Shown: positions 53,206 through 62,659 of the stretch, one piece after another
Layout of the letters: each line of letters opens with the position of its first letter
How positions within the stretch are numbered: the first letter of the stretch is position 1
Assembly (NCBI RefSeq): GCF_024623785.1
Contig: NZ_JANKBZ010000001.1
Span: forward strand, 620,001 to 684,000
DNA: 64,000 nt
Source: Archangium lipolyticum
GTDB lineage: Bacteria; Myxococcota; Myxococcia; Myxococcales; Myxococcaceae
Direction: 5' to 3'
The notes under the pieces: model-generated
What the model was told of the DNA's origin: nothing
The model's database searches: none
The model's input: the letters and a program-made list of their open reading frames with translations, nothing else
Position numbers and translations under genes: made by a program

Positions 53206-54111
53206 CTACTTCTTCTCGGCCTTCGAGGGATCGATCTCCTCCTCGGAGCGCTCGGTCACCTCGGCCCCCTCCCACTTCTCGCCCGCGCCCAGCCGCCAGT
53301 CGGTGGGCACGTCCAGCTTCCACACGTAGGTGGCCGCCGCATCCCCGCCCGACGTCGAACGCGAGCTCACGTTGAAGGTGATCTCCATCTTCTTCACCTC
53401 GTTGGGGATGAGATCGATGTCGTAGTGGCCCAGCACCATCTGCGGGGGGAACTCGGCGATGAAGCGCTCGGGGAAGTCCACCTTCATCGAGGGATCATCC
53501 GCGTTCATCTCGCCAATCAGCTTCCCCCGCTCGTCCGTGAGCTTCCACTGGGTCTTGAAGGAGGCGCTGGTCACCATCTTCTTCATCTTGCCGTCCTGGC
53601 GCTCCTCACGCTGGGCGCCCCAGAGCGCCAGCTGCAGGCGCACCTGCGGCTTGCCGAGCACCTGCACCACGTCCGAGGAGACCACGTCCAGGCGCATCCC
53701 CTTGTCCGTGGCCGTCCACTGCGGCTTGTAGTTGCCCTCGCGCATCTGGTCGAAGACCTTGCGCGTGTACTCATAGAAGGCCTTCTTGTCCTGGGCCCGC
53801 TCGTCCTTGTCGCCACGCTTCTCCAGCTCGCCCAGGTACGCGTCGAACTCCTTGCTCAGCTTGTAGCGGTTCTGGTGCGCGGAGATCTGCTCGAAGTACG
53901 TCTTGAAGAAGGGGGAGATCTCCTGCCGGTAGGACGCCTCATCGGGGTTGGTGCGGATCCAGCCCACGCGCTCCAGGTAGTCCTTCTGGATGCGGGTGAA
54001 GTCCGCCTCGCGTTGAGCCTCGGTCGCACGGGCACTGGCGCTGCGGTACGTCACCACGGCGGCGATCAGCACGCCGGCGATGAGCACGATGAGTCCGAAA
54101 TAACGCTTCAC
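53206..54111 (-). CDS. Membrane-anchored hypothetical protein
   Basis: A 301-residue protein from GTG 54111 (GGAG at ten bases). One N-terminal transmembrane segment (FGLIVLIAGVLIAAVVTY) anchors a large extracytoplasmic domain. Residues ~25-110 are charged and helical (ATEAQREADFTRIQKDYLER, ELEKRGDKDERAQDKKAFYE). The rest is strand-rich, with KTQWKLTDERGKLIGEMNAD and YDIDLIPNEVKKMEITFNVS. The C-terminus is acidic. I do not recognise a family. It lies on the same strand as the metallophosphatase, 36 bases upstream of it, so the two may be co-transcribed. Confidence 0.78.
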   Translation of the reverse strand: MKRYFGLIVLIAGVLIAAVVTYRSASARATEAQREADFTRIQKDYLERVGWIRTNPDEASYRQEISPFFKTYFEQISAHQNRYKLSKEFDAYLGELEKRGDKDERAQDKKAFYEYTRKVFDQMREGNYKPQWTATDKGMRLDVVSSDVVQVLGKPQVRLQLALWGAQREERQDGKMKKMVTSASFKTQWKLTDERGKLIGEMNADDPSMKVDFPERFIAEFPPQMVLGHYDIDLIPNEVKKMEITFNVSSRSTSGGDAAATYVWKLDVPTDWRLGAGEKWEGAEVTERSEEEIDPSKAEKK

Positions 54112-57768: not shown

Positions 57769-58407
57769 TCACCGGGGCGGGGGGGGATGCAGCAGCCGGC
57801 CGCGCAGCGCTCCCACGATCATCCCGATGCCGATGTCGTTGTTGCCGCCCTGGGGGACGATGATGTCGGCGTGGTGCTTGGAGGGCTCGACGAAGCCCTT
57901 GTGCATGGGGCGCACGTGGCGCAGGTACTGGCCCACCACGCGGTCGAAGTCGTACCCGCGCTCGTGGATGTCGCGCTCCAGGCGCCGGATGATGCGCAGG
58001 TCGTCGTCGGTGTCCACGTAGATGCGCACGTTCATCTCGTCGCGCAGCGCCTTCATGTGGAGCACGAGGATGCCCTCGATGAGGATCATGTCCCCGGGGT
58101 CCACGCGCACCGTTTGATTCTTCTGACGCGTGGACGCGACGAAGTCGTAGACGGGCTTCTGGATGGGCCGGCCCGCCTTGAGCTCGCGCAGATGCTCCAC
58201 CATCAGGTCCGTGTCGAAGGCGTCCGGGTGGTCGAAGTTGACCTCCCGGCGCTCGGCGAGCGTCATGTCTTCCAGGTCCCGGTAGTACGAGTCCTGGTCG
58301 ATGAAGGCCACGCGGCAGTCGGCGAGTGCGTCGCGGACCTTCCGGGCGACCGTCGTCTTGCCGGAAGCGGTACCACCGGCGATGCCAACGACGAGGGGTG
58401 ACGACAT
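57769..58407 (-). CDS. udk: Uridine kinase
   Basis: A 212-residue enzyme that phosphorylates uridine and cytidine in pyrimidine salvage. It has the P-loop GGTASGKTT, DSYYRDLEDMTLAERREVNF (the substrate loop), FDHPDAFD, and VYDFVASTRQ, with a late KHHADIIVPQGGNNDIGI. Length is normal. It ends 32 bases from the convergent propeller lipoprotein. Confidence 0.95.
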   Translation of the reverse strand: MSSPLVVGIAGGTASGKTTVARKVRDALADCRVAFIDQDSYYRDLEDMTLAERREVNFDHPDAFDTDLMVEHLRELKAGRPIQKPVYDFVASTRQKNQTVRVDPGDMILIEGILVLHMKALRDEMNVRIYVDTDDDLRIIRRLERDIHERGYDFDRVVGQYLRHVRPMHKGFVEPSKHHADIIVPQGGNNDIGIGMIVGALRGRLLHPPPPR

Positions 58408-58712
58408 GGGCGCGAACTACCCTAGAGGGAGGGGCGGGCGCAAGGCTCCGTCGAAAACCCGACAGAACGGGTGCTCTCTCCTCCAAGGGTCTGGTGCTCG
58501 ACGGGCTTCCCTCCTCCATCCGGTAGTTCACGATTCCACTGTCAGTCTCAGAACTCGAACCGACCCGGGTGGATGAGTCAGGTTTCTCGGTTCCAGTGGC
58601 AAAGTTAAACTTCACTCGGAGCAAAGCTTCTTCGACTGCCCGCCATCGAGGCTCCCCGGTCCGTGCCCCCCACAGGCGCGCCCGGCCTTCACCTCTCTCG
58701 TTGGGGGCAGAC
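58408..58712. other. 305-base divergent intergenic region
   Basis: This lies between udk (leftward) and the GLSLN-repeat lipoprotein (rightward), so it holds both promoters. A short inverted repeat ACCCG/CGGGT (58457-58461 with 58468-58472) is present. An AT-richer stretch, agttaaacttcactcgg, lies about 100 bases before the 58713 start, but no convincing promoter pair was found. A frame open from 58569 into the lipoprotein has no ribosome site. Confidence 0.4.
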
Positions 58713-59684
58713 ATGAATACCGGCTCTGTCGAGGTTTCTCGTCGTCTCGAGGCTGGATCTGGAAAGGGGACCTGGGGGTGGGTGCTCCCGAGCACCGCGC
58801 TCCTGCTGGCGGCGGTGAGCGCCTGTGGTCCGGCGGAAGGGTCGCTCGAGCCCCTGGCCTCGCGGGAACAGGCCCAGGAGATGGACACCAACAATGGCCT
58901 GTCGCTCAACGGGCTTTCACTCAACGGCCTGTCGCTCAACGGGCTCTCGCTCAACGGCCTGTCCCTGGAGGGCCTGTCCTCCCCCGAGTTCGATTCCTGG
59001 TTCCGGACGAACCCGGAGCTCAACGACCTGGTGATGAAGTACGTCGTCCTCTGCGCCGTGCCGGCCGGGGTGCGGCGCACCTACACGAATACCCATACGG
59101 GCGAGATCTATGTCTGGACGGGGAAGCTGGGACTCGCGCCGGACTGGAGCAACGGCTCGCCCGTCACCGTCACCGAGCAGCGGATCGTCTCCGCGTGCCT
59201 GGCGGCCCACGCCAACAAGTACGGAATCAACATCCCCATCTCCGTGCAGGGGCTGAGCGCCACGGGCGTGCCCATCCCCGTCTCCACCGCGGAGCTGCTG
59301 CTGTTCTCGGAGAAGGAGGCCTGCTTCTTCGGCAACCTCTTCACCCAGGAGTCCATCTACGTCGGCAATGACGGGCGCCCGCTCAACGACCGGGAGAGCA
59401 CCGCGCGCGCCTGCGCCCTCTCCACCCGGAGCAACCTGGTGAGCCAGGAGTGCCCCCCGATGGTCCGCGTGGAGGCGGACTGCTCGAGGTTCTGCACCCT
59501 GGATGCCTCGCGGAGGTTCTACGTGTCGTGCACCTACGGCGGCATCACCTGGCCGACCATCACGACGCGGATGCTCCGCAGGGACATCTACACCTGCGGA
59601 GACGGCGTCTGTCAGCGCACCGAGTCGTGTGGAACGGGCGAGTCGTATGACAACTGCGGCAGGGATTGCGGCCCCTGCCCCTGA
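58713..59684 (+). CDS. Lipoprotein with GLSLN pentapeptide repeats and cysteine-rich C-terminus
   Basis: A 323-residue protein from ATG 58713; a longer upstream frame is rejected. A signal with lipobox AVSAC follows an unusually long ~25-residue N-region. Shortly after the Cys come five GLSLN/E pentapeptides. The middle part starts FDSWFRTNPELNDLVMKYV and contains paired cysteines (VLCAVPAG, SACLAAHANKYG, EACFFGN). The C-terminus has a Cys-rich module, CGDGVCQRTESCGTGESYDN then CGRDCGPCP, a pattern I have seen in secreted myxobacterial proteins. No enzymatic motif was seen. It ends three bases from the convergent MNIO gene, and the cysteines make it a conceivable but unproven substrate or partner. 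Confidence 0.8.
   Translation: MNTGSVEVSRRLEAGSGKGTWGWVLPSTALLLAAVSACGPAEGSLEPLASREQAQEMDTNNGLSLNGLSLNGLSLNGLSLNGLSLEGLSSPEFDSWFRTNPELNDLVMKYVVLCAVPAGVRRTYTNTHTGEIYVWTGKLGLAPDWSNGSPVTVTEQRIVSACLAAHANKYGINIPISVQGLSATGVPIPVSTAELLLFSEKEACFFGNLFTQESIYVGNDGRPLNDRESTARACALSTRSNLVSQECPPMVRVEADCSRFCTLDASRRFYVSCTYGGITWPTITTRMLRRDIYTCGDGVCQRTESCGTGESYDNCGRDCGPCP
58896..58970 (+). repeat. Five 15-bp repeats encoding GLSLN/GLSLE
   Basis: Units start at 58896, 58911, 58926, 58941 and 58956; the first four encode GLSLN and the fifth GLSLE, followed by a partial GLS. Codon use alternates (ggcctgtcgctcaac, gggctttcactcaac), so DNA identity is also about 30-base periodic. Confidence 0.85.
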
Positions 59685-59687
59685 GCC

Positions 59688-61334
59688 TCACCCGCGCCGC
59701 AGCAGGCCGCGAGCGAGCCCCTCCGCCAGCAGCGCGGAGGGCACGGCCTCCACCGGCTGGGGAGCCCGCGCGAGCGAGCGCAACACCTCCAGCAACGACG
59801 GGGGCACCGTCAACACCTCGGGTCCCCTCCCCCTGCGCCGCACGACGAAGCTCCACGGGCCCGGAGCCGGACGCCGGGCCACCTGCGCGAGCGCCTCCAG
59901 GCCGCTCACGTCCAGCACCTCGCACGCCCAGGCCCTCCCCGTGAGGTGACGGCGCAGGGACTTCGCGGCGAAGACGAGCTCGGTGAGATCCGCGGGGAAG
60001 GTGCCCACGCGCACGTCCTCGGCCAGCCCCACCTGCCCCGGAGCGGGCGCGGCGAGGGGGCGCATCATGAAGACGTTGGGCAGGAAGGTCTCGAAGGAGA
60101 CCGCCGCCGCCACGCCCTCGTCCGGGTGCTCGCGTAGGCGGCGCCGCGTCCAGGCCGCGAAGGCGTGCCCCGGCGAGCGGCCCAGGCCCTCGAAGAGCTC
60201 GCGGAACTCCCGGGAGGCGGTGAAGGCGCGCAGATCGTCCCGCGTGCCCGCGAGCAGCAACCGGGAGATGGGCCAGTCGCGATCGAGCGTCTCGGCCACC
60301 ACCGCGAGCCGGAAGTCCGTCTCCGCGCGAGCCCCCTCCGTGTCCCCTCCGGTCTCCGGCTTCGCGCCATAGCCGGTCTCGTAGAGGGACCAGGGCTGGC
60401 TCTCCCCCGTGAAGGCCGGCGCGGGCTCCGTCACCGGGGTGAGCGCGAGCGGAGGCCGGGGCGCCGAGGGCACCAGCTTTCGCAGGCGGCGCAGCGTGAG
60501 GAGGGCCACCTCGAGCGGGTGCCCGTCTCCCTCGAAGGTGACGGCGCGCAGCGAGGGGCAGCGCGGCAGCAGCGACTCCAGCAGGCCGAAGAGCTCCTCG
60601 CGCACGGGCTGGGTGTGGTCGTCCACGTAGTAGCCCCGCCCGCCCCGGCGGGTGATGACGCCACCGGCGATGTGGATCTCGATGACCTTGTCGAGCGGGA
60701 AGCCGTCGAGTCCCGCCTCCAGGGGCAGTCGAGCGGCGAGCTGGTAGCTGAGCAGGTGCCCCAGATCGAGCAGCATCGGCAGACCGGTGCGCGCGTGCAC
60801 GCGGGCCATGAAGTCGAGCACGTGCAGCTCACCGCGCTTCGCGAAGGCGGCGGGGTTCTCCAGCGCGAGCGGGACGGACAGGTGGGACTGGACGTGGAGC
60901 GCGTGCGCCACGGAGTCGCGGACACCGGCCTCGGTGAAGGGCGGCGTGAAGTAGAGGTAGCCCGGGAACGGCTGTCCTCCCGAGTGCCACCAGCCGATGT
61001 CGTTGCCCACCCAGGCGCTGCCCACGGCGCGCGCGTGCGCGTCCAGGTCCGCGAGCACCTTGCCGGGCTCCAGCTCGGGGCCGTAGAGGTTGAGGTGCAC
61101 GGGGTGGAAGAGCACCGGCACGTCCTGGCGGCGCTCCCACATCTGGGGGAAGAGCGAGGCCTGCGCCCGCGTCTCGTCGAGCGACAGGGGGGCGCTGTAC
61201 TCCACGAAGTCGAAGAGGCCGGGCGACTCGGCGAGCAACCGGTAGGGATGCGGCTGATCCGCCGCGTCGAGGTTGCTGCTGAGGCCCAACCCCCGCCAGG
61301 GGAGCTGCCAGGCTGCCGCGTCAGGAAGGCTCAT
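59688..61334 (-). CDS. DUF692 (MNIO)-type multinuclear iron oxidase fused to an unrecognised C-terminal domain
   Basis: A 548-residue protein. Residues ~10-290 are a DUF692 TIM barrel with likely metal ligands at His77, His80 (FHPVHLNLYG), Asp112, Glu159-Asn160 (LALENPAA), Asp190, His193 (MLLDLGHLL), His221 (EIHIAGG), Asp239, His240, Glu268. DUF692 enzymes include MbnB and modify cysteines or C-termini of ribosomal peptides. Residues ~330-548 are helical and strand-mixed, with FRELFEGLGRSPGHAFAAWT and FLPNVFMMRPL. The end, VPPSLLEVLRSLARAPQPVE followed by ALLAEGLARGLL, vaguely resembles a small winged-helix or PqqD-like binding unit. The substrate peptide is not visible next to it. It is divergent from the dipeptidase-like gene at 61430. 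Confidence 0.82.
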   Translation of the reverse strand: MSLPDAAAWQLPWRGLGLSSNLDAADQPHPYRLLAESPGLFDFVEYSAPLSLDETRAQASLFPQMWERRQDVPVLFHPVHLNLYGPELEPGKVLADLDAHARAVGSAWVGNDIGWWHSGGQPFPGYLYFTPPFTEAGVRDSVAHALHVQSHLSVPLALENPAAFAKRGELHVLDFMARVHARTGLPMLLDLGHLLSYQLAARLPLEAGLDGFPLDKVIEIHIAGGVITRRGGRGYYVDDHTQPVREELFGLLESLLPRCPSLRAVTFEGDGHPLEVALLTLRRLRKLVPSAPRPPLALTPVTEPAPAFTGESQPWSLYETGYGAKPETGGDTEGARAETDFRLAVVAETLDRDWPISRLLLAGTRDDLRAFTASREFRELFEGLGRSPGHAFAAWTRRRLREHPDEGVAAAVSFETFLPNVFMMRPLAAPAPGQVGLAEDVRVGTFPADLTELVFAAKSLRRHLTGRAWACEVLDVSGLEALAQVARRPAPGPWSFVVRRRGRGPEVLTVPPSLLEVLRSLARAPQPVEAVPSALLAEGLARGLLRRG

Positions 61335-61429: not shown

Positions 61430-62659
61430 ATGACCGCACGTGGTACGTGGAGCTGTCTGCTGGCGTTGATGGGAAGCCTGGGATGCGCCGGCATCCAGCA
61501 GGTACCGGAAGCACCACCCCCCGAGGTGCCACCCCAGGTGATCAGGGCCGATCTCCACGTGCACGTGACCATGCGCGAAGCACTCCGGCCCTTCTTCCAG
61601 GGAGAGCCGGGAGATGGAGTGCTGGCGGGCTCGCACGCGGAGCGCCTCGTCAACCAGGTGGATCCGGCGGCGCTGCGGCGGGCGGGAGTGCGGTTGATCC
61701 TCGCGACGGTCTGGCCGCCTCCGGCCACCCGTCCCGGCCGGAGCGCGCTGGGCGAGGCGCTCCACCAGCTCGAGGAGCTGGAGGCCTTCGCCCGGAGGAG
61801 CCCGGACTTCGTGCTGGCGCACAGCGCCGAGGAGGCACGGCGGGAGCTCGCGCGCGGGCAGCTGGTGCTGGTTCCCGCCATCGAGGGCGGTGAGGGCATC
61901 CGGCGCGTGGAGGACGTGGATCTGCTTCACGCGGCGGGAGCGAGGTCCATCACCCTCGTGCATTTCTTCGACAACCCGCTGGCGGACGCCGCGGATGACC
62001 AGTTCGGCCCGCTGGTGGGAGGCCTCACCAATGGGCGGGAGGGCGGTCTCACGCCGCTCGGAGTGGAAGCGGTCCGGAGGATGATCCAGCTCGGCATCCT
62101 CATCGACGTGGCCCACGCCAGCGACAAGGCGATCGAGGACGTGCTCGCCATCACCGAGCCCGCGGGCGTGCCGATCCTCTACTCACACACCGGAGCGGGA
62201 TGGGCCGAGACGCGCTGCCTGAGCACGCCGCTCGCCCAGCGGATCGGCCGGAGCGGAGGACTGATCGGAATCGGACTCTTCCGCTCTCCATTCCAGGAGG
62301 TCCCCCTCACCGAGCGCTGGGAGGGCTTCCAGCCGGGGACCTGTGATGACGACGTCGCGCACTGGCTCCACTACGTCCGGCACACGAGCCCCGAGGCCGT
62401 CATGCTCGGCAGCGACTTCAGCAGCGTCATCCTCCGCGCCAGCCCGGGAGGCGCCTGCGCGCGCGGCATGCGCCACGCGGGAGATCTGCCCGCGCTGTTC
62501 GCCGCGCTGGAGGCCCGTGGCATCACGCGCGACAACCTCGACAGCTCGGGAGAACGGGTGCTGCGTCTGCTCGAAGCAGTCGAGGTCCGCTCAGACCCCG
62601 GGGTCCGTCAGTCGGCCCGGAAACTTTCTCCGCCACGGGACGACCTCTTCCCCGATTGA
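61430..62659 (+). CDS. Membrane dipeptidase-like (M19 family) lipoprotein
   Basis: A 409-residue lipoprotein (lipobox LGC in LMGSLGCAG). The amidohydrolase barrel carries metal motifs of the M19 renal dipeptidases: DLHVHV, VPAIEGGEG, IDVAHASD, YSHTGAG, and GSDFSSVIL. HxH replaces the more usual HxD first motif. The family cleaves dipeptides, some with D-residues, in the periplasm or at the outer membrane. The C-terminal ~35 residues are Arg/Ser/Pro-rich. It is divergent from the MNIO gene with 95 bases between. Confidence 0.85.
   Translation: MTARGTWSCLLALMGSLGCAGIQQVPEAPPPEVPPQVIRADLHVHVTMREALRPFFQGEPGDGVLAGSHAERLVNQVDPAALRRAGVRLILATVWPPPATRPGRSALGEALHQLEELEAFARRSPDFVLAHSAEEARRELARGQLVLVPAIEGGEGIRRVEDVDLLHAAGARSITLVHFFDNPLADAADDQFGPLVGGLTNGREGGLTPLGVEAVRRMIQLGILIDVAHASDKAIEDVLAITEPAGVPILYSHTGAGWAETRCLSTPLAQRIGRSGGLIGIGLFRSPFQEVPLTERWEGFQPGTCDDDVAHWLHYVRHTSPEAVMLGSDFSSVILRASPGGACARGMRHAGDLPALFAALEARGITRDNLDSSGERVLRLLEAVEVRSDPGVRQSARKLSPPRDDLFPD

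Follow-up and report, generated by a model that had tools for sequence, protein, structure and literature searches.

In a stretch of 64,000 nucleotides of the Archangium lipolyticum genome, referred to here as the window, a single gene encodes an MNIO (DUF692) enzyme whose barrel is continued by about 220 additional C-terminal residues. This fusion is conserved among Myxococcota, the proposed iron ligands are invariant, and two of them define an Asp112/His193 (D/H) type. The best reading of the C-terminal region is that of a built-in partner. Taken as a whole, the enzyme is rather probably a self-contained MNIO with a fused partner that hydroxylates a non-Cys residue of a substrate encoded elsewhere. 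The N-terminal barrel would hold the multi-iron site, and the C-terminal ~220 residues would represent a partner protein, with one helical half and one half of the RiPP-recognition-element kind, that was joined to the enzyme by fusion. This C-terminal half of the chain would grip the leader segment of a substrate supplied in trans and feed it into the barrel, where iron, O2, and a reductant would serve to hydroxylate a C-H bond.

The gene and its distribution

The gene, its parts, and the neighbours that recur around it are the following:

59688..61334, minus strand: MNIO gene with C-terminal extension, 548 aa (ORF, PF05114, orthologs, alignment)
60465..61307, minus strand: MNIO barrel, residues ~10-290 (PF05114 at 32-271, invariant positions, ligand mapping)
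60345..60464, minus strand: variable linker, residues ~291-330 (alignment gapped and weakly conserved)
60045..60344, minus strand: first part of the extension, residues ~331-430, putatively helical (helices in low-confidence models, core RLAV..LD..(W/F)P conserved)
59691..60044, minus strand: part resembling a recognition element, residues ~431-548 (model of the C-terminal region, Foldseek, VIA)
58569..59684, plus strand: convergent lipoprotein-like gene with NGLSL repeats (neighbour)
57769..58407, minus strand: uridine kinase, syntenic neighbour (conserved neighbourhood)
53206..54111, minus strand: T301, with a hydrophobic N-terminus, an old syntenic neighbour found phylum-wide (neighbourhoods, profile search)

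The ORF starts with ATG and is no chance reading frame, because it is conserved at full length in a 49-row alignment. PF05114 (DUF692) matches residues 32-271 with 96.4 bits (cut-off 25), and all NCBIfam equivalogs remain below their cut-offs (ApyH 83.2 of 400 bits, BufB 78.6 of 310, HvfB 40.8 of 360, ChrH 28.3 of 600). Among the sequences of solved structures, TglH, 3bww (an HvfB homolog), and MbnB are matched by the barrel. The first-pass annotation, made from the letters of the window, had described one gene carrying a DUF692 barrel plus a large extra domain, and the 548-aa protein with its ~220 C-terminal residues confirms this. Its further statement that neither a partner gene nor a small-peptide gene lies adjacent holds for the same strand on both flanks: no same-strand gene of partner size or for a small peptide adjoins the MNIO gene in the window. 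A divergent M19 dipeptidase gene (61430-62659, plus strand) is located 95 bp upstream. On the downstream side, the convergent NGLSL-repeat gene, of which that annotation made no mention, ends only 3 bp from the MNIO gene. In the ortholog neighbourhoods examined, no shared small-peptide gene was noticed beside the enzyme, with a gene finder whose minimum of 40 aa could let shorter peptide genes escape.

Orthologs of the fused MNIO are present in 76 of 195 Myxococcota genomes, each scoring at least 323 bits; in one of them, G142, the gene runs into the end of a contig. Searching with a C-terminal profile (A1, built from 26 members) finds a clear match in 75 of 193 Myxococcota genomes, one per genome and always in the frame of the enzyme, 74 of these at E <= 4.5e-52 and the one in G142 being cut off. 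Ten further genomes contain weak C-terminal fragments only (E 0.003 or worse), and a few carriers have an extra fragment of this kind; clear matches in the 193 genomes searched are confined to the fused enzyme. No relatives of the enzyme were found in a scan of viral contigs. A plasmid search returned 16 records with a match to the barrel, in all of which less than 80% of the protein is covered; one of the 16 carries the annotation of a 533-aa MNIO fusion.

The C-terminal region

Sequence comparison places the region close to no known family. From residue ~308 on, the window protein has no Pfam match and one weak NCBIfam match (E 0.15); the C-terminal regions of 26 members gave scattered weak single-member Pfam matches with no family of note, PF09836 (DUF2063, the PME-type 1 partner) being missing from the matches at E <= 5, and the PDB sequences contained no match. 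In hhalign, the C-terminal profile aligns collinearly with DUF2063 partners over 167 columns, which is not counted as evidence because P is 0.096 and the rank 15 of 188, below unrelated families. This 188-row list contains three partners twice and one control without the C-terminal profile. The strong DUF2063 score of one partner group was due to L076, which is a true DUF2063 fusion, and the group was rebuilt without it. Scores of the C-terminal profile against the separate partners of relatives, the extension of the L066 type, and the Streptomyces fusion L169 are at background level.

Structure prediction is more informative in kind than in score. A full-length prediction with the four closest sequences reached a mean pLDDT of 41, and its useful result is the match of the barrel to MNIOs. 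Prediction of the last 224 residues, for which three relatives were used, gave a mean pLDDT of 48, with 73-91 over the last 34 residues (~515-548) and 43-57 over the preceding twenty; the C-terminal end is modelled as strand-strand-helix-helix-strand. When this model was compared with 350,542 PDB chains by Foldseek, the best match was TglI (8hci_A, E 1.2), followed at rank 5 by TglI again (8hi7_A) and at rank 38 of the 43 matches at E <= 10 by NGO1945 (3dee). Most of the 43 are unrelated, with IpaD and the proteasome among the best, and none reaches E <= 0.001. Chain A of 8hci and 8hi7 was assigned to TglI, since chains B and D match the barrel, and TglI is named in structure 8hi7 (PMC12452194, in section 18). 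VIA returned Z values of 6.5 for TigE, 6.3 for NGO1945, 5.6 for MINA53, 5.0-5.5 for MccB (six entries), 5.0 and 4.9 for TglI, and 4.5 and 4.4 for ThcOx. Twelve of these 13 best rows are MNIO partners or RiPP enzymes, MINA53 being the exception; Z values in this range (4.4-6.5) can occur by chance, and a poor model underlies them. The matches mostly span residues ~430-548. TigE is presumably a RiPP enzyme, and the matched parts of TigE, MccB, and ThcOx are taken here to be recognition elements. The matched part of NGO1945 is a recognition element as well (PMC12452194, in section 18).

Weighted by the agreement in kind among the matches and not by any single score, the model suggests a weak but specific fold likeness of residues ~431-548 to MNIO partners. 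The helical part (~331-430) would occupy the place of the DUF2063-like half of such a partner. The remark of the first-pass annotation that the tail vaguely resembles a peptide-recognition unit was right in kind, with the restriction that the part after W494 is mostly missing in 8 of 48 complete rows. Its idea of a built-in partner gains from the TglI-like matches of the model but not from the sequence profiles, which cannot tell partner families from background. Resemblance to an unrelated domain, which it had named as the outcome speaking against this idea, did not emerge: TglI as best Foldseek match and the twelve partner or RiPP rows of VIA favour the partner, though with a mean pLDDT of 48, mostly unrelated proteins among the 43 matches, and E values short of significance.

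An unlikely alternative regards the region as a structural or regulatory domain, e.g. a DNA-binding winged helix, attached to an enzyme whose substrate would be a small molecule or a single fixed protein. The sequence searches without partner homology, the orthologs lacking the tail, and the maintenance of the gene across genera with no attached precursor noticed are all compatible with it, as are the winged-helix regulators further down in the VIA ranking (MtrA, Z 4.0). The top structural matches, in contrast, are MNIO partners and domains of RiPP enzymes, and a partner-sized gene is found at the same place in four near relatives. In these relatives with separate genes (L057, whose enzyme shows 35% identity, L063, L064, and L065; G186, scoring above the genome of L065, was left out), a gene of 216-303 aa directly follows the MNIO gene in four of four cases, and each time a start codon in its frame overlaps the MNIO stop by 4 bp. 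Such an overlap would offer a ready route from an enzyme-partner pair to a fused protein.

Judged from their sequences, MNIO-partner fusions that arose independently exist elsewhere in the phylum. L076 joins a BufB-type MNIO (372.5 bits) to DUF2063 (71.3 bits), and the C-terminus of the L066 enzyme matches ApyI at E 2.3e-6 with 27.1 bits, below the cut-off of 200. As an observation in its own right, L066:5331-9150 and also L067 and L077 encode ~600-aa MNIOs that carry the His/Asn ligand pair treated below (H/N type) and a sub-threshold ApyI-like C-terminal part; in L066, a glycosyltransferase gene ending in a PqqD domain (PF05402, 30.5 bits) adjoins the MNIO gene. An engineered HvfB-HvfC fusion yields more product than the two proteins do when co-expressed, and the active iron state needs the partner (PMC13419390, in part).

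Iron ligands and predicted chemistry

The proposed ligands H77, D112, E159, D190, H193, H221, D238, H240, and E268 are invariant in 49 of 49 rows, and so is H80. For PbsC, a published model (no structure) lists the ligands H97/D133/E178, H216/D260/H262, and D213/H247/E290 (PMC12257519, in section 19). Their counterparts are H77/D112/E159, H193/D238/H240, and D190/H221/E268, a mapping that rests on motif order and rough spacing relative to the published ligand list. D112 and H193 agree with the modelled D133 and H216 of PbsC, whereas TglH, MbnB (7dz9), and 3bww have His and Asn at these two places; the window enzyme thus lacks the His/Asn pair typical of Cys-oxidising MNIOs (MbnB, TglH, 3bww, BufB). 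A shortage of conserved ligands, raised beforehand as an objection to the enzyme, was not encountered: all nine invariant positions are present, two of them (D112, H193) being of the PbsC and not of the MbnB type.

Among 27 MNIOs chosen from the loci at hand, 18 are of the D/H type (10 from the fused family, 8 others), nine of the H/N type, and none is mixed. From the genome to which the window belongs, the H/N set takes in the bufferin, TIGR04222, and ChrH-like enzymes. In one alignment, Trp or Arg stands opposite E268 in 6 of 7 H/N rows, which is taken for a one-residue alignment shift. A tree calculated without positions 112, 193, and 268 needs one change between the two types, with support of 66/78; the one-change topology appears in 68% of 200 bootstrap trees, and several branches are long.

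Further MNIO loci occur in the same genome (G000). L001:767-2668 (C18) is a bufferin-type locus with an 81-aa Cys-containing ORF, an MNIO, and a DUF2063 partner. L069:8095-9417 (C2) encodes a ChrH-like MNIO with 235 bits against an equivalog cut-off of 600, preceded by a 52-aa ORF whose CPACGM motif is like the ChrA-type core CPxCGxG, and is possibly a ChrH-type locus. L068:7121-10830 (C43) contains two D/H MNIO genes in tandem, separated by a partner-like gene of 214 aa; genes for an arginase-family protein (PF00491, 112 bits) and a GNAT acetyltransferase precede them. An arginase gene beside D/H MNIOs recalls the pbs cluster, where PbsC adjoins an arginase gene.

Two D/H relatives from other bacteria also lie in RiPP-like clusters. 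Piscinibacter H5 has as neighbours a carbamoyltransferase, a TfuA protein, and a peptide of 57 aa with the C-terminal end ...LSNKARQKPW, a std-like arrangement; the comparison with std was made through this relative of StdE. Streptomyces H1 is a 533-aa protein clustered with YcaO and with a 53-aa FPFR-repeat peptide. The Streptomyces locus L169:1644-10344, on a plasmid of Streptomyces europaeiscabiei, combines the 533-aa MNIO with genes for YcaO, MBL-fold, acyl-protein synthase, and acyl-CoA reductase proteins; its 53-aa peptide carries four FPFR repeats, and it looks like an uncharacterised RiPP cluster.

PbsC together with PbsD ortho-hydroxylates Phe, and StdDE bis-hydroxylates homocitrulline (PMC13174530, in part). 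From the D/H ligands shared with PbsC and with the std-like and pbs-like relatives, the window enzyme is predicted, by analogy, to carry out C-H hydroxylation at a non-Cys residue, the substrate having its gene elsewhere. The D/H type is no general mark of hydroxylases, because PesH and PflD hydroxylate Asp although both are without the third-iron-binding motif (PMC13060819, in part). For the self-contained hydroxylase as a whole, the 4-bp overlaps and the arginase gene lean in favour, and the small confidently modelled part and the sub-threshold ApyI match lean against.

The same fused architecture could instead serve to oxidise Cys in a metal-binding peptide, giving thiooxazole or oxazolone, in the manner of the bufferin and methanobactin enzymes. 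Most predicted MNIO substrates are bufferins or related proteins that contain Cys (PMC12452194, in section 17). A DoxX-like gene is the divergent neighbour in 3 of 4 g3 loci (one of these genes reaches 23.3 bits, the PF07681 cut-off being 23.6), and doxX occurs in many bufferin clusters (PMC12452194, in part). Cys oxidation is nevertheless distinctly improbable, given that Asp112/His193 replaces the His/Asn of TglH, MbnB, and 3bww throughout the fused family (49/49 rows), that the D/H type stands apart on the tree, if with weak support (66/78), and that no Cys-rich small gene adjoins the enzyme in the window.

Neighbourhood and known systems

Neighbours were counted in 25 ortholog loci with broad flanks, the window itself and the loci L048 and L051 (short contigs or flanks) being excluded. 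Near the enzyme, T301 is found in 19 of the 25 and the uridine kinase in 16; a MacAB-TolC-like exporter lies upstream in 7, and also in the partial contig L048, with one opposite-strand gene in between in L054 and L078. The NGLSL lipoprotein is a neighbour in 5, all of them g1 or g6 loci. T301 was rejected as a substrate, being present in 150 of 193 Myxococcota genomes, many without the enzyme, and the exporter was considered as a part of the system but in G110 (L162) stands next to T301 with the enzyme missing. Since the two adjoin there in the absence of the enzyme and T301 is phylum-wide, both look like older neighbours, the exporter probably so. No substrate was found among the neighbouring candidates; the occurrence of exporter, T301, and repeat lipoprotein does not follow that of the MNIO gene.

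The protein encoded at 58569-59684 (plus strand) shows NGLSLNGLSLNGLS repeats, a Cys-rich end, and no Pfam or NCBIfam match; matches to its family number 8 in the genome of the window and up to at least 12 in relatives. That its repeats are the substrate, modified before export, is highly improbable: it adjoins the enzyme here and in 5 of the 25 ortholog loci, and other MNIO substrates have repeated motifs and lipoprotein signals (PMC12452194 and PMC12636315, in part), but with 8 family matches in its own genome most sit away from the enzyme, the family was not found in the carriers G060, G070, G103, G104, G140, and G153, and it occurs in genomes without a match to the C-terminal domain, e.g. 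G024 and G033.

The self-contained hydroxylase with a substrate in trans is of interest since most MNIOs depend on a separate partner and an engineered fusion already serves for their study; a fusion that is natural and conserved would give a ready single-protein system. That it has been conserved although no precursor is evident points to a substrate from outside the classical clusters, and the Asp112/His193 type would provide a rule, open to testing, by which uncharacterised MNIOs could be sorted according to their chemistry. A bolder version, which is doubtful at present, is a single-copy, one-chain MNIO hydroxylase, Myxococcaceae-wide, that places a so far unseen hydroxyl modification on a cellular or exported protein, with the His-to-Asp and Asn-to-His switch marking non-Cys chemistry. 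If true, it would amount to a housekeeping use of a RiPP-type enzyme. No account of the Myxococcota fusion or of the two-ligand switch was found in the open-access literature searched, which did not extend to the data tables of the RRE survey PMC12710340.

With TglH/TglI, HvfB/HvfC, PbsC/PbsD, and StdE/StdD, MNIOs with PME-type partner proteins, the window enzyme shares the barrel family and iron ligands, and its extra region may be partner-like in fold. It differs from pairs of the TglH/TglI type in that the partner-like region is on the same chain, no precursor was noticed alongside, and the gene is a widely conserved single-copy gene outside an evident cluster. All nine modelled ligands of PbsC, including D133 and H216, have counterparts in order and rough spacing, but PbsC has a separate partner, PbsD, and precursors in its cluster. 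Precedents for the fused architecture are MovX, ChrH, and the engineered HvfBC fusion. ChrH likewise bears a C-terminal helical bundle on an MNIO, which is a separate polypeptide in cyanobacteria; this bundle measures ~7.8 kDa (PMC12636315, in part), the window protein scores 28.3 bits of the 600 required for ChrH, and its ligand type differs from that of the ChrH-like enzymes of L003 and L069. MovX is also a stand-alone MNIO with a C-terminal recognition-element (winged-helix) domain (PMC13419390 and PMC12452194, in part). Compared with MovX by description, the extension of the window enzyme comprises ~220 residues and its helical half precedes the recognition-like half, and MovX has a known precursor, MovA, with which it forms a pair.
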